From positions 1 to 29,399 of the IMG/VR virus record IMGVR_UViG_3300020183_000345: a DNA stretch of 29,399 nt, one strand, 5' to 3'. This stretch comes from a virus. The notes under the pieces are model-generated. The model searched no databases. It saw nothing but the letters and a program-made list of their open reading frames with translations, and was not told where the DNA came from. Made by a program: the position numbers and the translations under genes. Below, one piece after another: positions 14,027-29,399 of this stretch (position 1 is its first letter; each line of letters opens with the position of its first letter).

Positions 14027-17000
14027 ATGCCCTGCTATAGTTATAATGACGGTAATCCTGTATTTTATGCAGACAATATTGAAAAGGTATACTCAGCAAG
14101 TGGAGCAACCTATTCTTATTCAGACATCTATTGGATCTGTGAATTTCCTGTAACGTCACAGCTTAAGGTTTATACTAGAGCTTCTGCTGGTGCTGAAGAA
14201 ACACAACTAATTGAGAATACTCACTATACCATTGATGTTGACAACAACAATATTATATTTGTTACTGCTCCTGTTTCTGGTCAGGTTGTAATTAGACGTA
14301 GCACTCCATCAGATAGAATGTTATTTAGATTTACTGATGGTGCTAAGCTAACGGCAGAGCAACTAAATACATCCTTTCATCAGTTGTTGTTTACAATCCA
14401 AGAAAAAGAATTTGCTAGTGATAAGATATCTTATTTTTCAACTGGTGGCATTACAGTTGAGGGTGGTATTAGTCCATTAGTATTTGATTTAGATAGTATT
14501 GGTATTGGTGAAACACTTGTATGGGATGGTAGTAAGTTTGTTCCTGGTGAAGCAGGCACAGGAACAAGCAGTAGTACATTCCTTCCAGTTCTTACAGCAC
14601 CAATTGAAGAAGGAAGTTTATTAGTTGTTAGTGGTATTCCTTTGCAGTGGAGAAATAGTGTCCCAACTGTAAATATATTCCAAGACAATTTAATCTTTAA
14701 GGATAGAACATTCTACAAGAATAGAACAGTTGGTAATGATCTTTCATATACCAGTGATGCTTCTAGTATTGATGTATCTTCTAAGTCGTTTCTAAACAGA
14801 TTTAAAACATTAGCTCCAAACTTGCAGTGGGTTTTGCTAGATGCCCCAACAGGATATCATCTTATTAAAACTTTAATACCAACTGGTGGTATTTCCGAAG
14901 ATCCAGATCCAGAAGTTTGGTTTAATTGGGTTCAAGAAACCCTAAATGATATTGCTATTGATTCTGGTAATCCAACAAAGATGAAATTCTATTGGAACCT
15001 GGGATTAGGTAGAAAACCTTATACAGCAAATGTAAGTGCTACATTTACTAATACTACTTTTTCTGCTCCGGGATTTGAAAATACAAGAAACAGGCCATTA
15101 AACAGTACCGATACTCAATTCTGGGATCACCCTAGAGAGTTGTATTCACCATATGGTTATATTCATTCTAGATTTTTTGGTTATCCAGTTGAAGGTAATC
15201 CAAAAGAAGAAGAAGAATGTCTTATGATTGCTACTGTTACAACAGCTAAAGACCTTCAAATTATTGATATTAATGATTATACATATACTAATGTATGGGA
15301 TCATAAGTATGATAATCCTTGGGTATATGGTGATGCTAAATCACTGGGTGGATTAGACGAGTATCCTGATCCAGAAGAATTTGAAGGTGAAAACTCAATT
15401 TTAAATCATAACTCTAAAGTTTATGGCTATGGTGTAAAAGCTTTTTATCTAAGTGTTCCTCAATGTAATACTACAACTTTAAAATTACCGGTATTTACAG
15501 CCACTAATGTTTATTTTCATATGGATACTGGTGCTGGTGGTGTTTCAGAAACAACAGTAAAGAATGAAATTAATGCATTAGGCTACGAGTGGAAACCATC
15601 AGATCCTCAAACAGCCTTAGCTCTGGGAACTAGTAGAACTTACTGTGATTATTATTTACTTGGGCTTAGGGATTTAGCATTTGCTGCTGCTCGCCCCTTA
15701 TATCAGTTTGCTAGTAATCAGGATCTATCAGAACCAAAGCATAGGGATAATCTAGCCAGATACTTTAAAGGTGGTCTTATTAAAGCAGACTACTCTGGTT
15801 GGAATACTTTAAGTCCAGGTATAGGATTTACTAATGGTTTTAAACGACTAGAAATATCTTCAGAACCTATTAGACCAATTACATTTAAAATTCCAGAACA
15901 AATCATCTACTACAATGAAGCTGCATTAGCTTTAGGCATATCACCAACAAGAATAACAGTTGATGCGGTAAAAGAGGATATTAGATTTCAAGGTCTATCA
16001 AGACATTACTTATTTTTATATGATGATATAAGTTCGGCTCAATGGAACGATACAAGATCTCATAGATTTGCTAATAGTGGTTTAGACCAGTCTCCATCAC
16101 CATCTAGTGTGTCTTATGGTGGTGGTTATTATTTTAAAGCTGATGGTTTCTGGGAAGATTGGTCAAGCCAGTGGAGTACAGACCAAGTATTCTTAAGTAC
16201 TAATATTAGAGATGCATTTTTTAATATGAGAAACGAAGCTTGTATAGATTGGTTTATAACCGATACAAACTTAAATACAAATGGTGTAGTAACCGCTCCA
16301 GGAAACAATTCATATTATAATTCGTTTAATAAAATGCCTATATTGTCTACAGTAAATGCTGCTGCTGGGCAACTAAGTAATATAAAAGGTAAGTATTTTG
16401 TACCTTGGATGTTTAGGCCTAACGAACTTCATGTTACTACTCCAACACCAACAAATTACATTACAAATGGTTATCAAGGAAATCACTTAATAAACATTGA
16501 TGGTAATTGTTTATTCTCTCAAGCTCATAATTTTATTCCAGATCCAGTAGACGAGTATGTATTTAGAATTGTTTCTAAAAATACTATAGCTAGTTTAGTA
16601 AGAGATCCAAGTAAAGATGTTTTAAACTCTTCTGTTATTCTTGAGTGGGGATTAACAAATCAACCAGATTCAGGTACAACAACAACAGTAACTGATATTG
16701 CTGATATCTTTGCAGATACTTCTGATATAGAAGCATTAAGAGCATCTTCTAGATATGATTATTCAAAGTTAAAAGTATACATTAAAAACGAAAGAGTTGA
16801 AGTACAGGGTTCTACTAATAGATATGTAATTACCTTAGCTATTCAAACTCCAAGAATTAAATCAATAGGTTATTCAAAAGTATTTAGAAGATTTACTTCT
16901 CAAGACTTATTATTAGACTATCCACAATGGGATAATAGTGGTGTTGATACAGAAAAAGATGGTGGTCCTTGGAACTTTAATTTAATAGACTTTAGAAATA

Positions 17001-17293
17001 CATCTACTTCAACTGGTGATGCTTTCTATAATGAAGGCGCATTTAATGTGGATACAGTTAATTTTGGTGATGGTACTATGGATTCTGTAGAAGGAAACTT
17101 AGGCACTACTAGAATATCTGCAATTGCTCCTACAGTATCAGGACGCAATGAATGTGCTGTTAAGTTTGTAAGAGCTGGTATTCCAGGTAATCTTTGGATT
17201 AGATTATCTGTACTAACTTCGGATGCTTGTGAGCCTTTACTTGTTGGGATGGATCCAGATAACTTAAACTTTAGCGAATTTACAGAGGAGTAA
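14027..17293 (+). CDS. Tail fibre protein (T7 gp17-type N-terminal domain)
   Basis: A 1088-residue protein. Residues 1 to ~130 match the T7 tail-fibre attachment domain: YSASGATYSYSDIYWICEFP, LKVYTRASAGAEETQLIENT HYTID with VDNNNIIF, and VVIRRSTPSDRMLFRFTDGA followed by LTAEQLNTSFHQLLFTIQE. This domain docks fibres onto the tail hub. The remaining ~900 residues are unlike T7, rich in Asn, Asp, Tyr and Trp, and should form the shaft and receptor-binding tip. A possible shaft start is the segment near residues 140-190 (GGISPLVFDLDSIGIG). T7 gp17 has 553 residues, so this fibre is about twice as long. A GGAGAG ribosome-binding site precedes it. In T7 the fibre follows the internal core genes; here it follows the nozzle directly. 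Confidence 0.93.
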   Translation: MPCYSYNDGNPVFYADNIEKVYSASGATYSYSDIYWICEFPVTSQLKVYTRASAGAEETQLIENTHYTIDVDNNNIIFVTAPVSGQVVIRRSTPSDRMLFRFTDGAKLTAEQLNTSFHQLLFTIQEKEFASDKISYFSTGGITVEGGISPLVFDLDSIGIGETLVWDGSKFVPGEAGTGTSSSTFLPVLTAPIEEGSLLVVSGIPLQWRNSVPTVNIFQDNLIFKDRTFYKNRTVGNDLSYTSDASSIDVSSKSFLNRFKTLAPNLQWVLLDAPTGYHLIKTLIPTGGISEDPDPEVWFNWVQETLNDIAIDSGNPTKMKFYWNLGLGRKPYTANVSATFTNTTFSAPGFENTRNRPLNSTDTQFWDHPRELYSPYGYIHSRFFGYPVEGNPKEEEECLMIATVTTAKDLQIIDINDYTYTNVWDHKYDNPWVYGDAKSLGGLDEYPDPEEFEGENSILNHNSKVYGYGVKAFYLSVPQCNTTTLKLPVFTATNVYFHMDTGAGGVSETTVKNEINALGYEWKPSDPQTALALGTSRTYCDYYLLGLRDLAFAAARPLYQFASNQDLSEPKHRDNLARYFKGGLIKADYSGWNTLSPGIGFTNGFKRLEISSEPIRPITFKIPEQIIYYNEAALALGISPTRITVDAVKEDIRFQGLSRHYLFLYDDISSAQWNDTRSHRFANSGLDQSPSPSSVSYGGGYYFKADGFWEDWSSQWSTDQVFLSTNIRDAFFNMRNEACIDWFITDTNLNTNGVVTAPGNNSYYNSFNKMPILSTVNAAAGQLSNIKGKYFVPWMFRPNELHVTTPTPTNYITNGYQGNHLINIDGNCLFSQAHNFIPDPVDEYVFRIVSKNTIASLVRDPSKDVLNSSVILEWGLTNQPDSGTTTTVTDIADIFADTSDIEALRASSRYDYSKLKVYIKNERVEVQGSTNRYVITLAIQTPRIKSIGYSKVFRRFTSQDLLLDYPQWDNSGVDTEKDGGPWNFNLIDFRNTSTSTGDAFYNEGAFNVDTVNFGDGTMDSVEGNLGTTRISAIAPTVSGRNECAVKFVRAGIPGNLWIRLSVLTSDACEPLLVGMDPDNLNFSEFTEE

Positions 17294-17295
17294 CA

Positions 17296-17559
17296 ATGGA
17301 ACAAGAAAAACCAAATATATCATCTATTATTCAATGGATTCAGTTAGTTGTCCTAAGTGTAGGTGTTGGTGGTTTTTTTGTAGACATTGGCAAAAGAACT
17401 CAACAACTTGATAAAACAAATCAAGACTTATCAGAACTAAAGATTATTGTTCAGGATTTAGTTAAGGCACAGATTCAAATATCATCAAATGATGCTACTC
17501 ACAAGATCATGCTAGAAGATCTCAAAGCTAGGGTTGTTGAACTAGAAAGAAGAAAGTAA
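17296..17559 (+). CDS. 87-aa single-membrane-segment protein with coiled coil (holin candidate)
   Basis: An 87-residue protein with a short N-terminal segment, one hydrophobic stretch at residues 11-29 (IIQWIQLVVLSVGVGGFFVD) and a heptad-like helical region over residues 34-86 (QQLDKTNQDLSELKIIVQDL, ending ARVVELERRK). This is the shape of many small phage membrane proteins annotated as holins; T7 gp17.5, also just after the fibre gene, is a 67-aa holin. The ribosome-binding site GAGGAG lies across the end of the fibre gene, and the stop overlaps the next ATG. A holin makes the inner-membrane lesion at lysis. Alternative: an anchor or i-spanin-like partner of the next protein. Confidence 0.6.
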   Translation: MEQEKPNISSIIQWIQLVVLSVGVGGFFVDIGKRTQQLDKTNQDLSELKIIVQDLVKAQIQISSNDATHKIMLEDLKARVVELERRK

Positions 17560-18104
17560 TGTATAAGTATATATTACTATTGTGTTTAGTTCTAGTTGGT
17601 TGTAAATCACCTACGGAACAGATTGCAAAAGATGCTAATCAAGTATCTACTTTGGCTCAATCCTCTAAGGAAAGGTTCATTAGAATTGATGAAGCCACAA
17701 AAACCGAGGTTATAGATGTTGCGTCGATCCGAGCAGAAGCATCTGCTGGAACGAAAGAACAAGATACTATAGTTAATCTAACTAAGTCTACATTGGTTGC
17801 GTTAACCAAAGTAGAAGATGAGGTTCCTTGGTGGGCTAGTTTATTATCTTATGTAATGGTTACTCTTAGTATAATTGCTATTTGCTTTATACTTTGGTAT
17901 ACCGGACTAGGTACATTACTTAAGAGTATATTCTATTCTTTAGGTTTATTTATTCCTAAGGCTAAACTAGAGCAGGCTGAGTTAGCTAAGAAGACGCTAG
18001 ACGAGTCTGATCCAGTTACCCCCAGGGAAATGGTTGCTGCATTACGGGCATCAGACCCAGCTTTTGATGCAGCTTATAGTAAGTTAAGTAAAAAGGAGAA
18101 TTAA
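17559..18104 (+). CDS. Lipoprotein with internal membrane segment, unimolecular-spanin candidate
   Basis: A 181-residue protein. Residues 1-15 form a lipoprotein signal (YILLLCLVLVGC) with lipobox LVGC and the acylated Cys at 15; the next residue is Lys, not Asp, so outer-membrane sorting is expected in a Gram-negative host. Residues 18-88 are polar and helical. Residues 91-115 (WWASLLSYVMVTLSIIAICF ILWYT) form a clear transmembrane helix, with a weaker hydrophobic stretch at 117-132, then a ~50-residue charged tail. An N-terminal lipobox plus C-terminal-side membrane helix is the layout of u-spanins such as phage T1 gp11, which fuse outer and inner membranes at the last lysis step. The long tail is unusual. 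Position after the holin candidate supports a lysis role; spanin activity is inference. Confidence 0.6.
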   Translation: MYKYILLLCLVLVGCKSPTEQIAKDANQVSTLAQSSKERFIRIDEATKTEVIDVASIRAEASAGTKEQDTIVNLTKSTLVALTKVEDEVPWWASLLSYVMVTLSIIAICFILWYTGLGTLLKSIFYSLGLFIPKAKLEQAELAKKTLDESDPVTPREMVAALRASDPAFDAAYSKLSKKEN

Positions 18105-18105
18105 T

Positions 18106-18207
18106 ATGGAATCATTTTTAGGTAGTCTTTGGTTTGCTGGTATGTTATTTGTTGTTGGTTATGTAGCTGGTCATGTATTTCCAATCACTAAGCTAGGCAA
18201 GAAGTAA
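18106..18207 (+). CDS. 33-aa single-pass membrane peptide
   Basis: A 33-residue protein, MESFLGSLWFAGMLFVVGYV then AGHVFPITKLGKK, with an AAGGAG ribosome-binding site and 1-base spacing after the previous stop. Residues 4-26 form a membrane helix with small residues (G, A) on one side and a basic C-terminal end, suggesting an N-out/C-in orientation. Its place between the spanin candidate and the small terminase suggests a lysis-cassette role such as holin or antiholin. Peptides of this size and type occur in other phage genomes, but none is recognised by name. Confidence 0.7.
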   Translation: MESFLGSLWFAGMLFVVGYVAGHVFPITKLGKK

Positions 18208-18208
18208 T

Positions 18209-18430
18209 ATGAAGGAGCAATTAAATAGCCTACAGGAGTTATTGATTGCTCGCCTTATTGCCGACTTTGGTGATGAGGCTAAGTGCACTCCTGGTTTTTA
18301 TACTGTAGTCCGTGGCATCCTTAGTGACCACAAGGACCAGATCAACAAGATTCCAAGCGAGTCTATTGAAGCTGTAGAGCAGGCCATGAAGGATGCTGCT
18401 CCATTCAAAATGAAGAAGGCCGCTTACTAA
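18209..18430 (+). CDS. terS: Small terminase subunit / DNA maturase A (T7 gp18-like)
   Basis: A 73-residue protein directly before the large terminase, 12 bases away. T7 gp18 has 89 residues and the same position. The sequence is helical, with LQELLIARLIADFGDEAKCT in the N-terminal half and IPSESIEAVEQAMKDAAPFK near the C-terminus. It would bind concatemeric phage DNA and regulate cleavage and packaging by the large subunit. Identification rests mainly on size, helical character and gene order; the family is poorly conserved. The ribosome-binding site (GGCAAGAAG) is modest, and coupling to the preceding 33-aa gene is likely. Confidence 0.75.
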   Translation: MKEQLNSLQELLIARLIADFGDEAKCTPGFYTVVRGILSDHKDQINKIPSESIEAVEQAMKDAAPFKMKKAAY

Positions 18431-18442
18431 TAGGAGATTCGG

Positions 18443-20107
18443 ATGAGGGTTCCCCAAGAAGTTGTAGATGATTTTAGAAACCACCTTTACTTTTGTTTTA
18501 AACATCTCGGTCTTGGGGAACCTACCCGAATCCAGTATGAACTAGCTCGACAAATTCAAGGGGGTCCGTCAGATCAGATCATAGCCGCAGGGCGTGGTAC
18601 TGGTAAGTCAACCATTACCGCTTGCTTAGCAAGTTGGGAGTGGTTAAAGAATCCTAACTGTACTTTTCTTGTGTTATCTAATACACAGGGTAAAGCTATT
18701 GACTTTGTTTCACAAGCTAGAAAGATTTTATCTGTTGTTTCTTACTGTACTCACTTAATCCCCGGTGATACTGATAAGGACAACGCCCTTGGTTTTAACG
18801 TAGCCGTTAGGACCAAGTTTACACAGGACCTTAGTTGTGCAGCCCGTGGCATTACAGGTCAGATTACTGGTCTTCACGCAGACCGTATTATCCTAGATGA
18901 CATTGAAATTGCTGGTAAAAATGAAACACCAATAGGTAAGGAAAACTTACTTAAGAAACTCAATGAACTTGAGTCTATTAGAAACAAACCATCTAGGGTT
19001 ATCTTCCTAGGTACACCACATTATCAGGACTCTATTTATAATGTCCTTAAGGGTTCCTATCCTATGATTAAGTACCCGGCTGAGATGCCTAATGCAACAG
19101 TTCCACATGAAGTCGAGGACGTGGCTTCCTGGGTCCTAGAGCTTGATCTAGAGCCAGGGGATGCTACACAGCCCGAACGGTTCGACCGAATAGAGCTAGC
19201 CGCTAGACAGGCTAAAATGGGGCCTAGTGCCTATGCTCTCCAGTATCGTCTTATAACTTCACTAGCAGATGCCGATAGATATCCTTTAAAGTTACGGGAC
19301 CTTATTATTATAGATGTAGATCCAGAGGTTGGTCCAGATAGGTTAATCTGGCAGGGTCAAAATCAATTAGCTGGTATGCCAATGTTTGGTATTTCGGGTG
19401 ACATAATCCCAGAACCAATGCATGTATCTAATACATTCTTGCCTTGGCAACATATGCATATGACTATTGACCCATCTGGTAGAGGCACAGATCAGACTGG
19501 TGTTTGTATATCATCTGTTCTTAGTGGCATGGTGTTTATCCATGAGTTACTTGGAATAGAGGGGGGATATGATAATACAACCCTACTTAAGATTGCTAAA
19601 CTAGTAAAGGAATATAGAATACCTTTAGTTAGGGTAGAGTCTAACTTTGGAGATGGCTTGTTTACAAAAGTATTAACTCCATTTTTAGTAGAGCATTGCG
19701 GTCATGTTGGTATAGAAGAATACAAAGTAACTGGACAAAAGGAATTAAGAATTATAGAAACACTAGAACCTGTTATGTCCATGCACAGATTAGTTTTAGC
19801 AAGAAAAGCTATTAAGGATGAGCAAAACCAAATCCAACTAACTAGAATACATAGGGGTCGTGGAGCTTTAAAACACGATGACAGGGTTGATGCTTTGTCA
19901 GCAGCAGTAGAATTCTACAAAAGTCATATGTCTGTTGATACAAAAAAATCAATGCAAGATCTTGAAAAAAAGATCTGGGAAAAACGAATAAAAAACTGGG
20001 CTGATAACTTTAGGGCTGGTGATTATTATCCCAATAGCGGAGCTACTAAGCTAATCGCAACAAACCACAAACCAAGAAAGAAAGGTAAAAGCCAATGGGG
20101 ATGGTAA
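18443..20107 (+). CDS. terL: Large terminase subunit / DNA packaging ATPase-nuclease (T7 gp19-like)
   Basis: A 554-residue protein with the full large-terminase motif set. ATPase domain: Walker A GRGTGKST at residues 50-57, Walker B RIILDDIE at 148-155, and a coupling motif VIFLGTPHY near 187-194. Nuclease domain: Asp343 in MTIDPSGRG, Glu399 in VRVESNFGD and Asp479/480/483 in HDDRVDALSAAVEF, the expected acidic triad. T7 gp19 has 586 residues. It pumps DNA into the prohead and cuts the concatemer. A GGAG ribosome-binding site lies 8 bases upstream. The 3' end overlaps the next gene by 13 bases. In T7 the terminase comes near the end of the late genes, after the internal core and fibre genes; here the internal core genes follow it. 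Confidence 0.97.
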   Translation: MRVPQEVVDDFRNHLYFCFKHLGLGEPTRIQYELARQIQGGPSDQIIAAGRGTGKSTITACLASWEWLKNPNCTFLVLSNTQGKAIDFVSQARKILSVVSYCTHLIPGDTDKDNALGFNVAVRTKFTQDLSCAARGITGQITGLHADRIILDDIEIAGKNETPIGKENLLKKLNELESIRNKPSRVIFLGTPHYQDSIYNVLKGSYPMIKYPAEMPNATVPHEVEDVASWVLELDLEPGDATQPERFDRIELAARQAKMGPSAYALQYRLITSLADADRYPLKLRDLIIIDVDPEVGPDRLIWQGQNQLAGMPMFGISGDIIPEPMHVSNTFLPWQHMHMTIDPSGRGTDQTGVCISSVLSGMVFIHELLGIEGGYDNTTLLKIAKLVKEYRIPLVRVESNFGDGLFTKVLTPFLVEHCGHVGIEEYKVTGQKELRIIETLEPVMSMHRLVLARKAIKDEQNQIQLTRIHRGRGALKHDDRVDALSAAVEFYKSHMSVDTKKSMQDLEKKIWEKRIKNWADNFRAGDYYPNSGATKLIATNHKPRKKGKSQWGW

Positions 20108-20865
20108 AAGAATTATTTGCATCAATAGTTGTAATTACATTAATGGTTTTGTTTGAGAACACTGTAGACAATACTTGTTTTCTTCCAATTGCCCTTGGAG
20201 CTATGTCATTAGCTCAGGGTGTTTTTGGTGGCATGGCAGCATCTGCTAAAGCAGAAAGAGAAAACCAAGAAGCTCTTGCTAGGTGGGGTGCTGCTACTGT
20301 CCAAAAAGCTTGGAATAACTCAAAAGCTCAGCTAGAAGCTGTGCAGCAGTTTGAAAACCAATTAAAAAAGAACAGACAAATATCTGAATCAGCTTTTTCT
20401 TATAACTATGATGCAAAGGAAGCTGCTAAAGTTGCTAATGTTTATAGACAAGAAGCAACATACAATGCAGCTACCGCAGGAAGGGCTGCTCTTACATCTT
20501 CTGTTGGTGCCCGTGGTATTTCTGCCAAATCAGGATCAACAACCGCTATGCTTATAGCCCAAGCTAGGTCAATGTTAGATGAAAATGAAAAACAAGAAGT
20601 AGAGTTTGATCAGCAAATAAAGAACATTAACACGCAAACAAAAAACATGATGAACCAACGTAGTGAAAATGTATTTATTGCTGATTTCCAGGGTTATGAT
20701 GCAGCACCACTGCTACAGGATACCCAATCTCCGCTTATTGGTGGTATAATGTCCGGTGTTTCTGGAGCATTTCAAGGAATGTTAACTGGTGCCAAGCTTT
20801 CTAATGAAATGGGTAGTGACGGTATTGGTGGATTGTTTAAGATGAGTGGTGGAATCTTTGGTTGA
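20095..20865 (+). CDS. Internal virion / ejection protein (T7 gp14-like)
   Basis: A 256-residue protein overlapping the terminase gene by 13 bases. The N-terminus carries hydrophobic stretches at residues 7-20 and 29-46, followed by a long Ala/Gln-rich helix (KAERENQEALARWGAATVQK...). A central GRAALTSSVGARGISAKSGS block is followed by helical sequence. T7 gp14 (196 residues) has the same pattern: hydrophobic N-terminus, Gln/Ala-rich helix and a GSIRAAIGESMLEGSSM segment at the equivalent place. T7 gp14 forms the outer-membrane pore at DNA ejection. A Gly-rich C-terminus (GGIMSGVSGAFQGMLTGAKL) is an addition. An AAAGG ribosome-binding site precedes the ATG; Met3 is an alternative start. Assignment is strengthened by the two large ejection-type proteins that follow. 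Confidence 0.82.
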   Translation: MGMVKELFASIVVITLMVLFENTVDNTCFLPIALGAMSLAQGVFGGMAASAKAERENQEALARWGAATVQKAWNNSKAQLEAVQQFENQLKKNRQISESAFSYNYDAKEAAKVANVYRQEATYNAATAGRAALTSSVGARGISAKSGSTTAMLIAQARSMLDENEKQEVEFDQQIKNINTQTKNMMNQRSENVFIADFQGYDAAPLLQDTQSPLIGGIMSGVSGAFQGMLTGAKLSNEMGSDGIGGLFKMSGGIFG

Positions 20866-20877
20866 AAGGAATAAACA

Positions 20878-23800
20878 ATGGCAATAGATCCAAGAATATT
20901 AAAAATTGGCGGTGATCGTCAAGTAAATCTTAATGTAACTCCAGGTACTGTACAAGAGCAAGGCAGAACAATTGGAGGTAGATTCCAAGTAGGCGCACCT
21001 CAACAATCCGTAGGCCCCAGCGGAGAAGAATCCCTTTACCAAAGTTTGTCATATATTGCTGGCGGTGTTGTAGACTCGGCCCAAAACATATCACAGCTTG
21101 CTGCCCTTAATAATGATATCTTATGGAATAAATGGTATGATGATCAGTGGCAAGGTCCTAACAGTAAACGAAGATCTATCCTTGAAGATCCAGAAGTATC
21201 AAGAGAAGACAAAAGAAAAAAACTAGTTGAGTTACTAGATGCCGCACCAACTAATGGAAACAATAAAAATAGAAAAGCCCAGTTATATGGTGACTGGTTA
21301 GATCAAGACCCAGATGCTACTTCTTTATTTCAAGAAGACTATGCTAAGTTTCAAGAAGAAACTCTATCGTGGTCGCCTGAAGATAGACTAAGAGTATATC
21401 TAGAGAGGTTTAATTATGAGCTTCAAGCTGGTATGCCACAGGCTATGTCTTATTATTTAGGATATCAAAAAGACCTACAAAACCACACGCAAGAAGTAGC
21501 AGTAACTCAAGGTAAACTTAGTCTTGAAAGAACAGCAGGATTTATGCAAGACGTTTTTGAGGCTGTATTAGCAAATGATCAGGGAGATCCAGTATTATTA
21601 GATACCTTACGACAAGAAGCTACTAGTTCTGGAAGCTTACCACAACTTGAACAAGTCATAGGTCAGGTAGATCTTATTAGACAAAACGGTGGAAATTACG
21701 AAGCAATCGAAAGTGTATTAAGAGACACACTAGGAATTGAAGCAAACTCTGATAGGTATTCTCCTTACAATCATCTTATGCAGGATATAGTTGCTCAAGC
21801 TGCTTATAGATTAAGTAGAAGTATGGGTGCTGCACAGGCTGAATCAAATGCTAAATTTGAACAAGCAAATAAAGATACAAATAGAAGGGTTTTTTCTGTT
21901 ACCCCTTTACCAACACAAACGCAAGCAGCAGCAGCGGAAGTATTGGGATTGCTTTCTACAGTAAATATTAGAAATCCGGCTGATATGAACTCAGCTTTAT
22001 CATCTTTAATGGATGGTATTATAGAAACCATTAATAATAGTAACATGGGTCAAGTTGAAGCGGTTGATTATACAACAAACCTTTTAGTTAAAACATGGGA
22101 AACAGCAACACCAGCACAGCGACAAACAATGGTTGCTGCTGGTTTAGTTCGTGTTCCAAAAGATTCAACTGGTGCTTCTACATTACTTATTTTTCAAACA
22201 CCAAGTTATGCTGAAAGTAATAGAGAAAGTATAAAACAAATTGCATCTAGTACATTAAATAGTAATAGCAGATTTACTGGTGTAGTAGAAAGACAAATCA
22301 ATGCAGCAGTAGCTCCATATATAAATACAGCTATTACTGGTCTACAGTCAGCAGGACAACTACCTATCTTATTAAAGGCTACAGCAAGCAATCTTGGTTT
22401 AACTAGTGAAACATATGAACAAAATCTTATTCAAGTACTTGTAGCAACCAATACAAGTAATGTATTATTAGGTGAAGGTGGTAGAAATGTTTGGAATTGG
22501 GGTTTAGGGTTTCCGCCAAACGAGTATGACTTATATGTTGCAGCTAATCAGGGTGACCAATCACCAGAAGCAAAAGCTTTACTTAAAAAATATGGATCAC
22601 TAGCAACTAAAGATCAAGAGAATGAAGGTATAGCCAAGGCTTTTAGTGAAGATAACAAGGTTATACTTAGTTTAAACAGAGCTTTAAATAGAACCCTACA
22701 AGAAATTGGGTCCATAAAGATTGAAGAAGGTAAACAATCGGGTGTATTTACTCCAGCTCAGCTTAAAGAAGCAGCATCAGTATCTACCGATACACAAAGT
22801 GGTTGGAACTTTGCCAAAGATGCGTTTAAAAATAATCCTGCTGTTTATGATTTAGCTTTAAAAGCAAATGAAGCTTCTAATGGATTAACATATAATACAA
22901 TGGTTGGTAACGAAAGGTTTAGTTTTGCTGTTCCTGTTGCTTCTAACGGAATAACAATTAATAACTTACAACTTTTAGTAGCAGCTAGACTAGCACAACA
23001 AGAGATTAATGAACTAAAAAAAACAAATCCAACTATGGCTGCCGCTAGAGCAACAATTGCTGAAGAAGAATTAAAGAAACTAGCAACCAGAACAATAGTA
23101 TTAACTAGTATATCAAATCATCCTGCTATTGTTGGAGATAAACCAGATGAAATAGCAAGTCAACGAGCGGCAGCTACAAGGGTTGCAGAAGCTGCACTAG
23201 CAACAGAAAGCGCATTTACCTTATTATACAAGGATAGTGACCTTGATACTTCAACCTTCTATGGTCCAGTACTAGCAGATTCAAACTTAAGTACAATAAC
23301 CATTGTAGACGATAGTGGTACTCTAGATCAGGGTAATTATGCTAGGGCTGTCTTTATGGTTAGACACGGTATGTTTACCAAAGAAGATATAAAATCAAGA
23401 ATGGATAAAGCATTTGCGGATTTGTCTGCTAGAAGTGGTAATATAGAACAAATGGATAAAGGTAATCTAATGTTTTTATTTGCCATTGCTGATGGTATTG
23501 CAAGTAAAGCTGTAGCTAAATCTGTAAAAGATCCGACAACATTACAGTCATCTATTGATGCTCAGATTTTAATGATGTCTCAAGGTTCTGACATAAAGTC
23601 ATTTGTTCCTTCATTAAGATCTTTAGTTGCTTTAAAATTAGCAACCAATCAAGAATTTATAAAGGGAGATAATCGGTTTACTGTTAATAATCCAGATAAC
23701 ACAATTTCAGGACTTACAGATACTACTAGAAAAGCCTTAGGTAGTGAGTTTACTGAGCGTTCAAGTAGAATGGCTGAACTAGCTAAACGAAAACTTAAAG

Positions 23801-25356
23801 CAGCAGCAAATTTAGCAACAGATGCTGTACAAACCAAAAATCCACTTCAGATTTTTAGATCATCTAGTTGGTCTAATTCTGGTGAAGGGGATTTTAATAC
23901 TAATAATCAACTTGTATTTCCATTTTCAGTACTTACTACTAGAAATAACAGTGAAAATATAGCTAATAGAAACAATGGAGAAATGGTTCTAAAAGCATGG
24001 ACGGATTCTGGTTGGCAGATTGCTGGTAATACTTCTGAGCAGAAACAAAGAACAATTGTTAGAACACTAGCATCTACAGTTGGTATTCCATTTAAAGAAG
24101 ATGGAGATTCCTTCGTTGTAGGTATTACAATATTTGATGATAATAATAGACCAATAAACATAAAACTAACTGATGAAACATTTGGTTTTATTGTAGAAAC
24201 ATTAACAACTCCATTAAGAGCTAACCCAAACTTTAGTAATTTCCTACAAAACTATAGAGAAGCTTTTCCAGATGACACAGACTTAACTAGTGTAATGTCT
24301 TATTGGAATGATGAATCAAGTACTTTTTTCTTGGGTGGTCCAACTATTCTTCCTGACTTTTTCAGCTACGAAGTTGGACAATTTTGGACTGGAAATTGGA
24401 TGACTGATCCAGAACAAGCATTAACTGGCAATGTTCTTAGGATTCCAGCTAAACATAATAACTATGTTAATGCTCTTACAGCAGCACCAGGTTCTTATTT
24501 TCCTAATGGGGTAAGAAATCAAGAAACGGTTGAAGAAGATATCCCTGGGAGTTTATTTGATAGAGAAGAGTATCTTCCTGGTATTTCTGGTAGAGAATCT
24601 ACTTATGCTACTTTATGGTTGTTTGGTGAAAGATCAAGAATAAGTGAAGCAGAAATAAAAGAAGACTTAACTACACTAGCTAAAACTTATTATGGTGAAG
24701 ACTTAAATCCTTATACTATTGGAACTATTGAAGATGCTGCAACAAGATTAGCAGAAGATTCTAAACTTAATAGAAGAGCAAGAACAAATGCAGCTTTATT
24801 GTTTGAGTTAGAGGATATTGTATATACATCAGGAAGAGTACAAGGTAAGGGTGGTATATTACCACCAGATTTGTTAGATGTTGGTAATGGTATATTTAGT
24901 AATGCTCCTGGTAGAAAACCTAAAGTATTTTCAATTGATTTTGCAGGAGATGCTACAGTTAGACAAATGGTTTCAGATGATAGTGGATCTTACAGTATTC
25001 CTTTATCTTATGGTGTGCCATTTGATCCTAAGCTATATCCACTCCAAACTAATGAAACAATTACAGGCACTACTCAACTTACAAATCTAAATACTCAACT
25101 TGATTTTATTCGTGAATTTTTTGTAGGCGAAGAAGGAAGCACAAACTTTGGTCATCCTTGGTTACAATATATTGGCAGCCCACCACCAAGACCGCCTGGT
25201 ATTCATTATGGCTTTAATAGACAAGATCTTTCAAAAGATTATAATGACACCTTTAAATTCTCTGAACAATTTTGGAGACTAAAAAAAGAAGGCTTATATA
25301 GAACTAGAAGATTAAATGCTACGGGTCCATTGGTATTTAGAGAAGAAAGAGACTAA
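20878..25356 (+). CDS. Large internal virion protein (T7 gp15-like position)
   Basis: A 1492-residue, largely helical protein with an AAAGGA ribosome-binding site. Its N-terminal region (RTIGGRFQVGAPQQSVG..., SLSYIAGGVVDSAQNISQLA) resembles the start of T7 gp15-type core proteins, and the internal segments are Ala/Gln/Asn-rich helices with no membrane segment or enzyme motif. T7 gp15 has 747 residues, so this is about double; sequence support is limited and the call relies on position between gp14-like and a further large ejection-type protein. In T7, gp15 and gp16 form the periplasmic and inner-membrane parts of the DNA-ejection channel. The last 18 residues, RTRRLNATGPLVFREERD, hold the first copy of a 42-bp exact repeat also found in the next gene. 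No lytic transglycosylase motif is seen. Confidence 0.72.
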   Translation: MAIDPRILKIGGDRQVNLNVTPGTVQEQGRTIGGRFQVGAPQQSVGPSGEESLYQSLSYIAGGVVDSAQNISQLAALNNDILWNKWYDDQWQGPNSKRRSILEDPEVSREDKRKKLVELLDAAPTNGNNKNRKAQLYGDWLDQDPDATSLFQEDYAKFQEETLSWSPEDRLRVYLERFNYELQAGMPQAMSYYLGYQKDLQNHTQEVAVTQGKLSLERTAGFMQDVFEAVLANDQGDPVLLDTLRQEATSSGSLPQLEQVIGQVDLIRQNGGNYEAIESVLRDTLGIEANSDRYSPYNHLMQDIVAQAAYRLSRSMGAAQAESNAKFEQANKDTNRRVFSVTPLPTQTQAAAAEVLGLLSTVNIRNPADMNSALSSLMDGIIETINNSNMGQVEAVDYTTNLLVKTWETATPAQRQTMVAAGLVRVPKDSTGASTLLIFQTPSYAESNRESIKQIASSTLNSNSRFTGVVERQINAAVAPYINTAITGLQSAGQLPILLKATASNLGLTSETYEQNLIQVLVATNTSNVLLGEGGRNVWNWGLGFPPNEYDLYVAANQGDQSPEAKALLKKYGSLATKDQENEGIAKAFSEDNKVILSLNRALNRTLQEIGSIKIEEGKQSGVFTPAQLKEAASVSTDTQSGWNFAKDAFKNNPAVYDLALKANEASNGLTYNTMVGNERFSFAVPVASNGITINNLQLLVAARLAQQEINELKKTNPTMAAARATIAEEELKKLATRTIVLTSISNHPAIVGDKPDEIASQRAAATRVAEAALATESAFTLLYKDSDLDTSTFYGPVLADSNLSTITIVDDSGTLDQGNYARAVFMVRHGMFTKEDIKSRMDKAFADLSARSGNIEQMDKGNLMFLFAIADGIASKAVAKSVKDPTTLQSSIDAQILMMSQGSDIKSFVPSLRSLVALKLATNQEFIKGDNRFTVNNPDNTISGLTDTTRKALGSEFTERSSRMAELAKRKLKAAANLATDAVQTKNPLQIFRSSSWSNSGEGDFNTNNQLVFPFSVLTTRNNSENIANRNNGEMVLKAWTDSGWQIAGNTSEQKQRTIVRTLASTVGIPFKEDGDSFVVGITIFDDNNRPINIKLTDETFGFIVETLTTPLRANPNFSNFLQNYREAFPDDTDLTSVMSYWNDESSTFFLGGPTILPDFFSYEVGQFWTGNWMTDPEQALTGNVLRIPAKHNNYVNALTAAPGSYFPNGVRNQETVEEDIPGSLFDREEYLPGISGRESTYATLWLFGERSRISEAEIKEDLTTLAKTYYGEDLNPYTIGTIEDAATRLAEDSKLNRRARTNAALLFELEDIVYTSGRVQGKGGILPPDLLDVGNGIFSNAPGRKPKVFSIDFAGDATVRQMVSDDSGSYSIPLSYGVPFDPKLYPLQTNETITGTTQLTNLNTQLDFIREFFVGEEGSTNFGHPWLQYIGSPPPRPPGIHYGFNRQDLSKDYNDTFKFSEQFWRLKKEGLYRTRRLNATGPLVFREERD
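25299..25340 (+). repeat. 42-bp direct repeat, copy 1
   Basis: Starts TAGAACTAGAAGATTAAATG and ends TTGGTATTTAG. It is identical over 42 bases to 25661-25702, offset 362 bases. It lies in the last codons of the 1492-aa ejection protein and encodes RTRRLNATGPLVFR. Both copies are read in the same codon phase. Confidence 0.97.
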
Positions 25357-25358
25357 TA

Positions 25359-28157
25359 ATGAATTATGATCCTTATAATTTATTTGGCGATTCTTTTAAT
25401 CCTAAAGATTTTAGTTCATTAATACTACCCGAAGTTAGAACTGATGATGGAGAATTAGCTCGGGCAGATTTAAAGGCTTATAATGAATATAGCAATGATT
25501 TAAAAGAGTATATATACATTAGTGCTTTTCTTGAAGACGAGTACTTAAGTAGACCTAAAGAAGAAGATACCAATTTAAATAAACAAATTGCTAGTCAGTG
25601 GGCCTCTAGTTTAAGTAATACACCAAAAGATACCGATCAACTAGCTGATGAAAATACTGTTAGAACTAGAAGATTAAATGCTACGGGTCCATTGGTATTT
25701 AGGGACTATCAAACTGGCGAGTTAGTATTTGCAGATCCTGATAGAAATGAACAACAATGGATTATATCTCAGGGTAAAGATAATCTAGAAGGTATGTTTG
25801 GAATTGAAAAACCGGCAGCAGCGCAAGTATCTTTAAGATATATGGGTAAAGGGTTTAATACTAAAGATTTCTATACAGCACTTAAAGAAGCTAATATGGC
25901 TTTAGATGAAACAGAAAGAGAAAAAGCCATAGAAAAACTTAAAGGGTTTGCTGCTTGGGCTGAGTGGGGATGGGGTGCTAACTGGGTACAGTTTGTACCT
26001 TTCTTAAGTCCTGATAGCCGAGATAATATTGCAAGGGAATCAATTAAGGCTTTATCAATAGGTGGTTATGGTGGCCTTATAACATTTGGAGAAAACTATT
26101 ATTCTTCAGACCCATTTGATATAGTTTCTAACTTACCGGCAAATCCAAATTGGAATTATAATAAAGCATGGAAAGCATTTGAACAAACAAATCCAGGAGC
26201 TGCTGCCTGGTTTGTTCAAAATGGATTAGATGTCCAAGCTTTGTCTAATACAAAAAACGAATTAGATTTTTTCTATGAGTTAAATAACTTTGTAGATACT
26301 AATGCATTTGTTAGAATAATGGGATCTGATGTAGAACAAATGTCTGATCTAGGTTATTTAATTAAGACTACAGTAGGCCCCCTTATTAGAGATTCATTTG
26401 GATCTATTGATGCTCCTGTAGATATTGCAGCAACTATTGGGGTATCTGTAGTTACTGCTGGTGTAGGTGGCGCAGCTTTGCTTGGTGCCCGTGGAGCAAT
26501 CTTAGCTGGCAAGTATGGATCAACTGCAATGAAAACTGTACAAGCTGTTCAGCGATTTAGAAAGTCAGCTGAAGTCGTTACCTCTTGGTTGCCACATAAT
26601 ATTGCTGGTAGGTTTGCAAAAGAATCTAGCACCCTTACCGGCAAAGCAGCAACCTATGCTGGTGTAAGTGTAGGTAATGGCGTTATTACTGGTGCATGGT
26701 ATAACATAAACAACCAGTTAAATAATATGGATAACGATACAGCATATGAGTGGAGTACAAAGAATCTTGCTCACGATATTGGAATGGAAATTGTTGGTGA
26801 GTTTGGGTTAGGTGGTTTATCATCTGGTGTTCAGTTTGTAACATTTAAGGGTGTTAGTGCTTTAGATAAAGTTAGTGGAAACTATTTAGGTAAGGTAGTT
26901 AAATCACAGTTTGAAAAACTACCAACAAACCTACAAGAATTCCTAAAAGCATCAGCACAACTAGCAAGACCCTTTAACTCTAATGAAGATTTAAGTAACT
27001 ATGAACTTAGAATCTATACTGATGCTGTTGTTACCGCTTATGCTATGCGTACTGCTGGTATCCTGGATGCTAATAATCAATCCCCAAACTTTAGAACAGC
27101 AGCAGCTTGGGGCATGGCTTCTCAAACTTTAAGTGCAGAACGAACCGCACAAATAGTAGAGAAAGCTAAGGATAGTTTAATTAGAAAGAAAAAAGAACTA
27201 GCAGATTCAGAATCACCAGAAGTTTTAACTGACGATGATATGGATTTATATGTTGCCGAAACCTTATTCTCTGCTATGGTTTCTGATACATCTATTTCAG
27301 AAAGTGGTAAAAGCCAAATCGTTGGTCTTTGGCTTGCAATGGAACGAGAGATGTTTAACAAGAGCCAGAGAAATGAAGAACAAATATCTGGTAAACAAAA
27401 AGAAATTAGTGACCTTGAAAACGAAAAGATGAATCTTGTTGAGTACTTAGAAAAGAATAAAACAAAACTTTCTGAAGAACAAAAACAAGAAACCCAAGGT
27501 AAAATAGATTCTCTATCAGTAGATATAAGTACTAAGAATACTGAACTAGAGCAGCTTAATAAAAATGCTGATCTTAGTACCCTAAGTGCTGAAGAGTTGG
27601 CTGGTAAATTAAAGGAGTGGAGAGATGGTAAGAGAGAAAGAGCAAAAGCTTTACGCGCTTTAATTATTCCATCCGATTCTACTTCTGCTATTGATGCAGT
27701 AGCAACTAGGGAAGAACTAAGGGCAGTAGCAACTGAGCTTGGTGAAGCAGCTATTCCTGTAATAGAAGCACTAAGAGAAACCTCAACACCAGAGTCTGGG
27801 TTGCCTTCTGATATAGGACCTACCCTCGCTACTGAATTAGATAAAGCGGCAGCAGAAGTCGTTAGAACGGCAGCTCCAGCAGAACCAGCAGTAACCCCGG
27901 AAGTTATTGCAGAACCTCCCACAACGCCTTCTGAGGTTGCTCCTGAGGGTGCTGAGCCTGTAGCTGAGGCTGTTACTGAAGGTGCTGAGCCTGTAGCTGA
28001 GGCTGTTCCAGAAGTAACTGAACCTACCCCAGAACCTTCAACCGGGGTTATAGATGTCAGGGCAGCAATGTCAGAACTTGCCGAGAACTTAGAAACTGTA
28101 GATAGGATATACCTATTTAACAAGATACTACAAAAATACAAAGATGCCTGTAAATAA
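25359..28157 (+). CDS. Large internal virion protein with Gly/Ala-rich hydrophobic region (gp16-like position)
   Basis: A 932-residue protein starting 2 bases after the previous stop, with only a weak GAAAGAG ribosome-binding sequence, so translational coupling is likely. Residues 102-115 hold the second copy of the RTRRLNATGPLVFR repeat. Residues ~350-395 (VDIAATIGVSVVTAGVGGAA LLGARGAILAG) are a Gly/Ala-rich hydrophobic stretch that could enter a membrane. Residues ~665-740 look like a charged coiled coil (EEQISGKQKEISDLENEKMN...). Residues ~843-897 are a Pro/Ala/Glu linker with an 11-residue tandem repeat, and the end (VIDVRAAMSELAENLETVDR...) is a helix. T7 gp16 has 1318 residues and an N-terminal lytic transglycosylase; none is visible here. 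A role in DNA ejection is inferred from position and the hydrophobic segment. Confidence 0.72.
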   Translation: MNYDPYNLFGDSFNPKDFSSLILPEVRTDDGELARADLKAYNEYSNDLKEYIYISAFLEDEYLSRPKEEDTNLNKQIASQWASSLSNTPKDTDQLADENTVRTRRLNATGPLVFRDYQTGELVFADPDRNEQQWIISQGKDNLEGMFGIEKPAAAQVSLRYMGKGFNTKDFYTALKEANMALDETEREKAIEKLKGFAAWAEWGWGANWVQFVPFLSPDSRDNIARESIKALSIGGYGGLITFGENYYSSDPFDIVSNLPANPNWNYNKAWKAFEQTNPGAAAWFVQNGLDVQALSNTKNELDFFYELNNFVDTNAFVRIMGSDVEQMSDLGYLIKTTVGPLIRDSFGSIDAPVDIAATIGVSVVTAGVGGAALLGARGAILAGKYGSTAMKTVQAVQRFRKSAEVVTSWLPHNIAGRFAKESSTLTGKAATYAGVSVGNGVITGAWYNINNQLNNMDNDTAYEWSTKNLAHDIGMEIVGEFGLGGLSSGVQFVTFKGVSALDKVSGNYLGKVVKSQFEKLPTNLQEFLKASAQLARPFNSNEDLSNYELRIYTDAVVTAYAMRTAGILDANNQSPNFRTAAAWGMASQTLSAERTAQIVEKAKDSLIRKKKELADSESPEVLTDDDMDLYVAETLFSAMVSDTSISESGKSQIVGLWLAMEREMFNKSQRNEEQISGKQKEISDLENEKMNLVEYLEKNKTKLSEEQKQETQGKIDSLSVDISTKNTELEQLNKNADLSTLSAEELAGKLKEWRDGKRERAKALRALIIPSDSTSAIDAVATREELRAVATELGEAAIPVIEALRETSTPESGLPSDIGPTLATELDKAAAEVVRTAAPAEPAVTPEVIAEPPTTPSEVAPEGAEPVAEAVTEGAEPVAEAVPEVTEPTPEPSTGVIDVRAAMSELAENLETVDRIYLFNKILQKYKDACK
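25661..25702 (+). repeat. 42-bp direct repeat, copy 2
   Basis: Identical to 25299-25340 and read in the same phase (RTRRLNATGPLVFR), here at residues 102-115 of the 932-aa protein, followed by DYQTGELVFADPD. Flanking sequences differ on both sides, so the identity stops sharply. Confidence 0.97.
27948..28007 (+). repeat. Tandem 33-bp repeat in Pro/Ala/Glu linker
   Basis: The 27-base unit GGTGCTGAGCCTGTAGCTGA plus GGCTGTT occurs at 27948-27974 and again at 27981-28007, a period of 33 bases. It encodes GAEPVAEAV twice, with TE between, inside a disordered-looking linker. Such in-frame repeats arise by slippage or unequal recombination and can change linker length between relatives. Confidence 0.93.
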
Positions 28158-28168
28158 GGAGATATATA

Positions 28169-29399
28169 ATGGGTAAATGTAGCGAAGAAGTCTTAAATAA
28201 TATTAGAGAAGAATTAAAATCCCTAGGAGTAACTGATCCTGAAGTTGTTAATAAGATTGTATTAACCTTTGAGAATACAGTAGAAACAGATGAAAAAGCA
28301 GAAACCATCGCTACATTACTAAACAATAGTTTATTTACAGATAAAGATAGAGCAAGATTAGATACATTAATTAGTAAGTTTAGAAAAGCTAGGGGTGATA
28401 TTAGTAAAGTAACATCTGAAGAACTATCAGAGTTTTCCTACTTATGGTCTAAATGGCAAAGTTCACTGGATGGTACTATCCTTGTTAATGAGGGATTACA
28501 AACTAGAGAAACAGAAACACTTGTTAGTAGATTAAATAAACTTAAACTACGACTAGAAAGAGAAGGCAAAGCTAAAGAAGCTAAGGTTGTTAGTGGGCTT
28601 ATAAGTAGACTTGATAGAGCCAGAACACAAAATTTACAGGCTGGTAATTTTCTACGGAATGCTGACTTTGAGGGTAGATTAGAAAAATCAAGGCAGCTCT
28701 TAAGTGCTATTGATTCATCCTATCAATATGAAGCACAAAATAATCCTGAACTACTTAAGCTAAACGAAGAGCGGTTTAAGTTGGTTGGAGAACTTCGACT
28801 AGAAAAAGATCCAGAAAAACAAAAAGAAATACAAGAAAAAATCAACAAGAATATTGCAGAAGTAAGAAAGAAAACAAACGAACTACTACTTAGCAAAGCT
28901 TTTATTAAACAAAAGAAAGCTGACTCGGCTGGACAAGAACTACTCTATGATACAATCAAAGAACTTAGTTCTGCAATAGATTCAAATGCTTCTGTATATC
29001 GATTAGCTTTAAATGACGCGCTGTCTAGAATAGATACACTAGCAAACGATAAACAACTATTTGAATTAGCAAAGCAAAGCATAAACATGGTTAATACTGT
29101 TAGGGCTTTGATGGATGCTATTAGAAAAGAAAAGGGTGGCAAGGTTACTGTTGGAGAACTAAAAGAAGTACTCAGTGATCTTGGAGTCCCTGTTGATACG
29201 CTTGTCCTTGAAGTATTTAAAAACGAAAGACTAACAAGAAAAGAAAAGAAAAAACTGCTTAATGGTGAAACTGAACTATCAGATAATCAAATAGCAAACA
29301 TCTTTACTAAGCTATCTAACATTGCTATTGATCAAGCATTTGCTAATGGTATTGCGCTGGGTTACGATTTTACCCCTGCCGAACAAGTATTAGCTGCAC
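28169..29399 (+). CDS. Helical internal-virion-type protein, 3'-truncated by window edge
   Basis: An ATG at 28169, after a strong AAGGAGATATATA ribosome-binding region and an 11-base gap, opens a frame that runs without a stop to the window end (410 codons seen). The product starts MGKCSEEVLNNIREELKSLG and is almost wholly helical and charged, rich in Lys, Glu, Leu and Asn, with coiled-coil-like parts such as residues ~115-150 (LVSRLNKLKLRLEREGKAKE) and ~195-245 (PELLKLNEERFKLVGELRLE). No membrane segment, signal or enzyme motif is visible in this part. Directly following the ejection-type genes, it may be a further core protein, or the continuation of a gp16-type function split over two genes. 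Its C-terminus, possibly with an enzymatic domain, is outside the window. Confidence 0.75.
   Translation, partial: MGKCSEEVLNNIREELKSLGVTDPEVVNKIVLTFENTVETDEKAETIATLLNNSLFTDKDRARLDTLISKFRKARGDISKVTSEELSEFSYLWSKWQSSLDGTILVNEGLQTRETETLVSRLNKLKLRLEREGKAKEAKVVSGLISRLDRARTQNLQAGNFLRNADFEGRLEKSRQLLSAIDSSYQYEAQNNPELLKLNEERFKLVGELRLEKDPEKQKEIQEKINKNIAEVRKKTNELLLSKAFIKQKKADSAGQELLYDTIKELSSAIDSNASVYRLALNDALSRIDTLANDKQLFELAKQSINMVNTVRALMDAIRKEKGGKVTVGELKEVLSDLGVPVDTLVLEVFKNERLTRKEKKKLLNGETELSDNQIANIFTKLSNIAIDQAFANGIALGYDFTPAEQVLAA

Follow-up and report, generated by a model that had tools for sequence, protein, structure and literature searches.

A widespread family of u-spanin-like phage lipoproteins with a predicted cytoplasmic tail and a conserved micropeptide neighbour

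Introduction

Can a phage lipoprotein that is laid out across two membranes like a unimolecular spanin (u-spanin) also possess a domain inside the cell? This question is raised by a gene in the window analysed here, a 29,399-base IMG/VR record that represents a genome fragment and not a whole phage. A preliminary description of the window had read the gene product as a u-spanin-like lipoprotein with an extra cytoplasmic tail, and had offered another role, such as exclusion, as an alternative. In the parts of the spanin survey used here (PMC6139136), u-spanins are defined by an N-terminal outer-membrane lipoprotein signal and a transmembrane domain at the C-terminus. The same parts report that none of the u-spanins surveyed (58/58) has a periplasmic Cys, that the periplasmic domain of T1-type u-spanins is beta-rich (a trait that is not strictly defining), and that the shortest two-component spanin pair has a periplasmic length of 62 (PMC6139136).

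Results

The lipoprotein gene and its surroundings

The lipoprotein gene (17559..18104, + strand) translates into 181 residues; the gene is real and its reading is correct. Upstream of the cassette to which it belongs lies the gene for a tail-fibre-like protein with a Pfam Phage_T7_tail match (14027-17293). The first gene of the cassette (17296..17559, +) encodes an 87-residue protein, hereafter the coil protein, in which a membrane helix at about residues 11-29, with a GKR basic pair after it, is followed by a coiled coil. Its stop codon and the ATG of the lipoprotein gene share one base in a TAATG overlap. Downstream of the lipoprotein gene lies an ORF for a one-helix micropeptide of 33 residues (18106..18207, +; MESFLGSLWFAGMLFVVGYVAGHVFPITKLGKK), a likely partner within the cassette, whose Shine-Dalgarno-like AAGGAGA sits inside the end of the lipoprotein gene. 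Next come the genes for the terminase small subunit (TerS; 18209..18430, +), which matched PHROG 1351 (E 4e-5) and, below the cut-off of that family, Pfam DNA_Packaging_2 (E 0.001), and for a T7-type terminase large subunit (TerL; 18443..20107, +). The position of the lipoprotein gene is late, with the tail fibre on one side and the terminase genes on the other. T7-type phages keep their holin and spanin genes near the tail-fibre and terminase genes, and the named relative HTVC119P has an annotated lysozyme in the interval between the tail fibre and TerL.

Two other features of the window were recorded in passing. A 1314-residue protein (1967-5911) matched the RCC1 repeat (PF13540, E 3e-12), and the 14-residue peptide RTRRLNATGPLVFR occurs identically at the C-terminus of a 1492-residue protein and at residues 102-115 of the next protein, of 932 residues (25300-25341 and 25662-25703, the DNA of both copies being nearly identical). 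A loose motif search of seven related contigs did not find this peptide.

The lipoprotein begins with a signal peptide and the lipobox LVGC (residues 1-15; 17559..17603, +), and residue +2 after Cys15 is Lys, which agrees with the lipobox and non-Asp next residue of the preliminary description. The strong membrane helix that had been placed at residues 91-115 (17829..17903, +) was recovered both by hydropathy, the best 19-residue segment past residue 15 being 94-112 with a mean KD of 2.43, and in AF2 models; it is preceded by PWW and ends in WYTG, both conserved. The predicted periplasmic part (residues 16-89; 17604..17825, +) was modelled with alpha helices at 18-47 and 54-84. About 66 residues lie beyond helix 91-115, or 69 when counted from the 19-residue segment. 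The second weakly hydrophobic stretch that had been noted here is present, but the idea that it is a second membrane span was rejected, as the 19-residue segment from residue 114 has a KD of only 1.21. The models and a hydrophobic moment of 0.49 favour a short amphipathic helix for the segment 117-128, modelled at about 117-127 (17904..17939, +) and predicted to lie at the cytoplasmic face of the membrane. The predicted cytoplasmic tail (134-181; 17958..18101, +) includes the best-conserved stretch of the family, residues 151-175.

AF2 models built from 23 and 52 sequences had mean pLDDT values of 77.4 and 84.4 and pTM values of 0.40 and 0.47. They contained helices at 18-47, 54-84, 91-114/115, 117-127, 134-147, 155-165 and 167-180, the packing of which is unreliable because the pTM is low. 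The periplasmic part is all-alpha in these models, the beta-rich trait of the T1 family being absent.

A widespread lipoprotein family with a conserved tail

Relatives were collected in five scans of viral contigs and one scan of genome contigs, in addition to the window itself, four of the viral scans contributing the best 80 of 107, 190, 180 and 178 relatives, respectively. This yielded at least 297 profile matches, corresponding to at least 152 places that are distinct by sequence and at least 142 distinct proteins. At least 151 of the places are IMG/VR contigs, and one (L162) lies on a contig of 7.5 kb that is catalogued with a Nitrospiraceae genome. Judged by these relatives, the family is uncharacterised and widespread in uncultured phages.

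Homologues lacking the lipobox Cys, which had been named beforehand as evidence against a spanin, did not come to light: the Cys is present in all 148 members with an N-terminus among the at least 152 places, four members whose contigs end there having been left out of this count. Alignment at the Cys15 column was obtained for 144 of the 148; the other four (L005, L006, L008 and L009), with the lipobox GCKSPTAQ, had been trimmed by the script at a second, periplasmic Cys. The lipoboxes of L196 (CVAC) and L261 (LTAC) were missed by an earlier pattern and were read by eye. Among 119 members parsed by a stricter script, residue +2 is Ser in 77, Lys in 29, Asn in 7, Gly in 4, Val in 2 and Asp in none, the Cys picked for L182 in this tally probably being the wrong one. 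In 29 members read by eye it is Asn or Ser, except in L231, where it is Asp. The 119 parsed members have 54-74 residues between the Cys and the Pro that precedes the helix (54-57 in 75 of them), which is near the length of 62 of the shortest two-component pair. The periplasmic part of the window protein is free of Cys, as in the surveyed u-spanins; a periplasmic Cys is present in 7 of the 119 parsed relatives, the subgroup L005-L011 (in SECSDG, SECSAG or DECNLG), unlike in the surveyed u-spanins. In every one of the 148 members, the helix flank facing the tail bears more positive charge than the opposite flank.

Among 52 representatives of less than 85% identity, the mean major-residue fraction rises from 0.38 in the periplasmic part to 0.55 in the helix, 0.57 in residues 134-150 and 0.71 in residues 151-175. 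Over 451 non-independent pairs, dN/dS is approximately 0.13 in the periplasmic part, 0.12 in the helix and 0.13 in the tail, compared to 0.45 in the signal peptide. The well-conserved tail, with its dN/dS of this order, is therefore under selection and no read-through accident. That conservation peaks in the tail and not in the periplasmic part suggests an intracellular function.

A micropeptide accompanies the lipoprotein

The micropeptide belongs to a family of one-helix peptides of 33-45 residues with the core [FL]LG[ST]xW[FA], a later GYxxG, a conserved GxxxG pair and a positive C-terminus. A profile seeded with four peptides was applied to the forward-strand ORFs in a region reaching from 3 kb upstream to 4 kb downstream of each lipoprotein gene. 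The seed model at once produced 131 matches in 5,585 real ORFs, while there were none in 5,585 reversed ORFs and none in 10,399 opposite-strand ORFs, and the iterated profile search placed a micropeptide downstream of the lipoprotein in 148 of 152 places. In the four exceptions (L014, L027, L218 and L247) the contig stops with the lipoprotein gene or no more than 28 bases from it, so every place able to show a micropeptide has one. Of 147 micropeptides with the core motif, 135 start no more than 120 nt from the lipoprotein stop codon and 12 start at 254-433 nt; in the two distant cases that were looked at (L106 and L129), one further small ORF lies in between. The dN/dS of the micropeptide is approximately 0.13 (771 pairs). 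The micropeptide is thus far a candidate for a one-helix holin-like peptide. The preliminary description had suggested a search for homologues next to holins. For both the micropeptide and the coil protein, matches to known holin families stayed at chance level, and the genes alongside included no recognised endolysin.

The coil protein is frequent but not always adjacent

By a crude filter without a chance control, a small helix-plus-coil ORF was found directly upstream of the lipoprotein gene in 125 of 148 members, the helix being N-terminal in 104, C-terminal in 10 and intermediate in 11; the other 23 members had no passing ORF. In L106 the helix stands at the C-terminal end of the directly upstream protein. 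The coil protein is encoded further upstream, with other ORFs in between, in L162, L068, L069 and G021, and a similar coil-helix ORF that does not adjoin the lipoprotein gene lies 1.7-2.7 kb upstream in L068, L069/G011 and G021. Since the lipoprotein and the micropeptide occur together in every place where the contig continues and the coil protein is not always adjacent, the pair is the constant part and the coil protein a frequent one. The charge bias of 67 distinct coil proteins leaves the orientation ambiguous (41 ties, 14 N-in, 12 N-out), and a Cys is present in the coil part of 1 of 82 upstream proteins. For the coil protein of the window, Pfam and PHROGs gave chance-level matches only and NCBIfam gave none. 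Membership of the coil protein in the Mu gp25 releasin family was rejected: PF10805 matched in none of 20 contigs at E 10, in a test whose control passes the family cut-off in 1 of 14 genomes, and hhalign to Mu gp25 gave a probability of 1.6%. In CRP-403, gp37 (L164:1549-1821) is a helix-plus-coil protein of 90 residues after the tail-fibre region, with a layout like that of the 87-residue protein of the window.

Searches for a second spanin gene and an endolysin

A separate Rz/Rz1 pair in the same genome had likewise been named as evidence against a u-spanin. The search of the window, itself a genome fragment, and of five long relatives (G001, G002, G005, G006 and G021) brought up no further credible lipoprotein (o-spanin) gene, and the leftover candidates there overlap longer ORFs (124 to 4,040 codons) and have a weak ribosome-binding site or none. 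The filter requires K/R and bars D/E in the signal; it missed the family member of G017 itself, so other lipoproteins can be missed. For G011 its output further included three candidates that lie within ORFs of 230-791 codons.

Amidase_2 was found in none of 14 related contigs, and Phage_lysozyme, Peptidase_M15_4, SLT and CHAP in none of 20 contigs each. GH108 and GH19 each gave one match among 20 contigs, below the cut-off, and both tests are weak because the controls detected GH19 in 0 of 14 genomes and GH108 in 1 of 14, below the cut-off. Peptidase_M23 exceeded the cut-off in one of 20 contigs (G011), where the match falls within a frame of 704 codons surrounded by virion genes. Pfam searches with gene predictions from a simple in-house script recognised no endolysin in G001 (covering 36 of 67 predicted proteins and 3,530 of 4,172 residues of the giant protein), G021 (24 of 41 and 2,539 of 2,886) or G006 (10 of 71 and 3,392 of 3,740). 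As endolysins are diverse, a failed search is weak evidence of absence. The giant protein of G006 (17958-29180; L148) matched a polyvalent-protein ADP-ribosyltransferase domain (PF18760, E 3e-36), and a 189-residue protein of the same contig (40710-41279; L149:2710-3276) matched the citrate synthase C-terminal domain (PF00285, E 4e-12).

Phage backbones that carry the pair

The lipoprotein-micropeptide pair is carried by T7-like phages of 60-69 kb; the window has T7-type TerL, capsid-assembly and tail-fibre domains, and the T7-like G001 has an RNA polymerase and a T7 primase domain. It is also carried by G021, a 39.9-kb podovirus contig with an Sf6-type TerS, a GP7 capsid and Bbp16, and by L106, L129 and L162, which have other terminases. 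The occurrence of the pair in unrelated backbones points to a portable functional unit. In G002, G006, G011 and G017 the first 60 bases are repeated near the end, as in terminally redundant genomes; the same test found no such repeat in G001, G005 and G021.

Database and literature searches

Searches of the lipoprotein against Pfam, PHROGs and NCBIfam gave chance-level matches only. The best PHROG match (E 0.0023) was obtained with 2 of 52 members and concerned a PHROG family without function, and matches of family members to PHROG spanins were at chance level (E 0.02-0.3). Sequence and fold searches of the PDB gave nothing useful, and BFVD contained one relative, a phage protein of 129 residues (E 3e-6 and 7e-7). 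No match was found in INPHARED by tblastn with the lipoproteins of L068, L106 and L253, the micropeptide of L106 and the coil protein of the window. Two P0001 matches to Desulfovibrio phage records (E 0.2) were dismissed as chance; they lie inside a 442-residue ORF without a lipobox. Inspection by eye of the named marine T7-like phages HTVC119P, CRP-403 and P-SSP10 found no lipoprotein or micropeptide at the corresponding place. In the titles and opening abstract lines of the top-ranked open-licence papers there was no description of the lipoprotein family or of a u-spanin with a cytoplasmic domain, and top-ranked open-licence papers on micropeptide holins contained nothing that matched. Parts of two further papers were drawn on (PMC12596118, PMC4411677). 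The family appears novel mainly because, at the sensitivities used, it could not be found in Pfam, NCBIfam, PHROGs or INPHARED.

Discussion

A proposed role for the lipoprotein

We put the chances at about even that the lipoprotein is the outer-membrane-disrupting, u-spanin-like element of a conserved late membrane cassette. This reading draws on the lipobox Cys, the charge of the helix flanks, the status of the gene as the sole credible lipoprotein gene in the window and five long relatives, its late position and the constant company of the micropeptide on all contigs long enough to show it. It also draws on the recurrence of the pair in unrelated backbones, on the Cys-free periplasmic part of the window protein and on a periplasmic length near that of the shortest two-component pair. 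Of the preliminary u-spanin-like reading, the two-membrane layout, the place in a late operon and the extra tail have held, while a spanin function is putative. The helix is not C-terminal, as 66-69 residues follow it, the modelled periplasmic part lacks a beta-rich character, and the searches beside the cassette recognised no endolysin; the protein is therefore named u-spanin-like and is not filed as a u-spanin.

In the proposed mechanism, a lipid on Cys15 would hold the N-terminus in the outer membrane, as the lipobox and the non-Asp residue at +2 suggest, and helix 91-115 would hold the protein in the inner membrane with its tail inside, in keeping with the flank charges and the models. Residues 16-89 would link both membranes across the cell wall through their two helices. 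Once the wall is cut, these helices may fold together and draw the outer and inner membranes close until they fuse, which is how other spanins have been proposed to act. In the least certain part of the proposal, the amphipathic helix and tail (116-181) might bind the micropeptide, and perhaps the coil protein, and this binding could tie bridging or triggering to events at the inner membrane. Some observations count against the reading. Conservation is highest in the tail, and neither the comparison with T1 gp11 nor the matches to PHROG spanins rise above chance. The periplasm is about 20-25 nm wide, for which a fully helical periplasmic part of about 10 nm is short; one member (L231) has Asp at +2, and seven (L005-L011) have a periplasmic Cys.

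Alternative readings concern the partners and the membrane in which the lipoprotein acts. An Asp at +2 is an inner-membrane retention signal in E. coli, a rule that may not hold in the host of this phage. Under that rule, its near absence (0 of 119 parsed members, and L231 among the 29 read by eye) speaks against an inner-membrane protein that controls the timing of lysis, in which both lipid and helix would sit in the inner membrane and which would join the micropeptide and the coil protein in a complex of holin/antiholin or releasin-like type, operated from the cytoplasm. The best-conserved part being the tail, the one helix, GxxxG pair and positive C-terminus of the micropeptide, and the resemblance of the coil protein to the Mu gp25 releasin, as laid out in the part of that report used here (PMC9239132), all suit such a complex; a lipobox would be needless in an inner-membrane protein with its own helix, however, and the DUF2730 (PF10805) and hhalign comparisons given above failed to link the coil protein to gp25. 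We consider this reading unlikely. A two-component spanin, with the coil protein as an i-spanin (N-in, periplasmic coil) and the lipoprotein as an o-spanin that gained a helix and a tail, seems rather unlikely, even though the genes overlap at TAATG, a helix-plus-coil ORF passed the crude filter directly upstream in most members and the charge bias leaves the orientation of the coil protein unfixed. The weak matches of the upstream protein to phrog_13, an Rz-like spanin (E 0.05 in the window and 0.014 in L162), stand among unrelated families at the chance level of coiled coils. The lipoprotein's own helix 91-115 would be superfluous in an o-spanin, which has no membrane helix; the helix of the upstream protein of L106 is C-terminal, and the coil-helix ORFs of L068, L069/G011 and G021 are remote from the lipoprotein gene. 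Cys is nearly general in two-component spanin systems according to the parts of the survey used (PMC6139136), whereas the coil part has one in only 1 of 82 proteins.

Two readings would place the lipoprotein outside lysis altogether. A membrane anchor for virion assembly or DNA packaging would explain why the gene adjoins TerS and TerL in the window and has terminase genes nearby in L106, L129 and L162, and a conserved tail would then face the cytoplasm; yet no terminase was seen by eye in the 6 kb downstream of the gene in L198 and L229, and the lipobox Cys is kept in every member showing its N-terminus. We judge this very unlikely. Small phage lipoproteins can block receptors, and the exclusion role offered in the preliminary description, or another envelope function unrelated to lysis, would fit that precedent. 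Exclusion genes are usually accessory and variable, whereas this is a late gene beside structural and packaging genes; it occurs at 152 or more places in unrelated phages, accompanied by the micropeptide in all cases in which the contig continues. Such a role strikes us as highly improbable.

Returning to the u-spanin-like reading, it can be extended to a portable egress module of a coil protein, a bridge with an endodomain and a peptide of 33-45 residues, in which disruption of the outer membrane would be switched from the cytoplasm, and which would either carry lysis or work with an unrecognised wall-cutting step in phages without a recognisable endolysin. This extension is a speculation that we think quite unlikely to hold. 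The family itself is a widespread uncharacterised candidate whose tail could show whether spanin action is controllable from inside the cell. The micropeptide can be named as a candidate partner of the lipoprotein, and the family profile is usable for annotating lysis regions in uncultured phages.

Comparison with known systems

T1 gp11 and KP34 gp54 share with the lipoprotein an N-terminal lipobox, one membrane helix and, as predicted for the lipoprotein, an N-out/C-in layout, and with the window protein also the lack of a periplasmic Cys and of a separate Rz1 that could be found. In contrast, their periplasmic part is beta-rich and not alpha-helical as in the models, and no pinholin or SAR endolysin was recognised beside the lipoprotein gene. 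The tail, which the preliminary description had correctly held to be absent from T1 gp11, comprises 69 residues after the 19-residue helix segment, as against 8 in T1 gp11 and 12 in KP34 gp54, and an hhalign comparison with T1 gp11 was not significant (probability 1.3%). As in lambda Rz/Rz1, the lipoprotein gene overlaps a helix-plus-coil gene and the periplasmic part is helical; unlike in lambda, the lipoprotein brings a membrane helix and a tail of its own, and Cys is rare in the coil of the putative partner (1 of 82). The coil protein resembles the Mu gp25 releasin (DUF2730) in its short N-terminal helix, basic pair and coil, as far as described in the part of the report used here (PMC9239132), and the lysis genes of Mu also lie just before the terminase genes; it differs in having no DUF2730 match, no profile similarity and no recognised SAR endolysin. 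The reovirus FAST fusogens act in other hosts and on other membranes, and we draw an analogy only and claim no relation; in the portion of the source used (PMC7830690), they too have an outside N-terminus, one helix and a cytoplasmic endodomain with an amphipathic helix.
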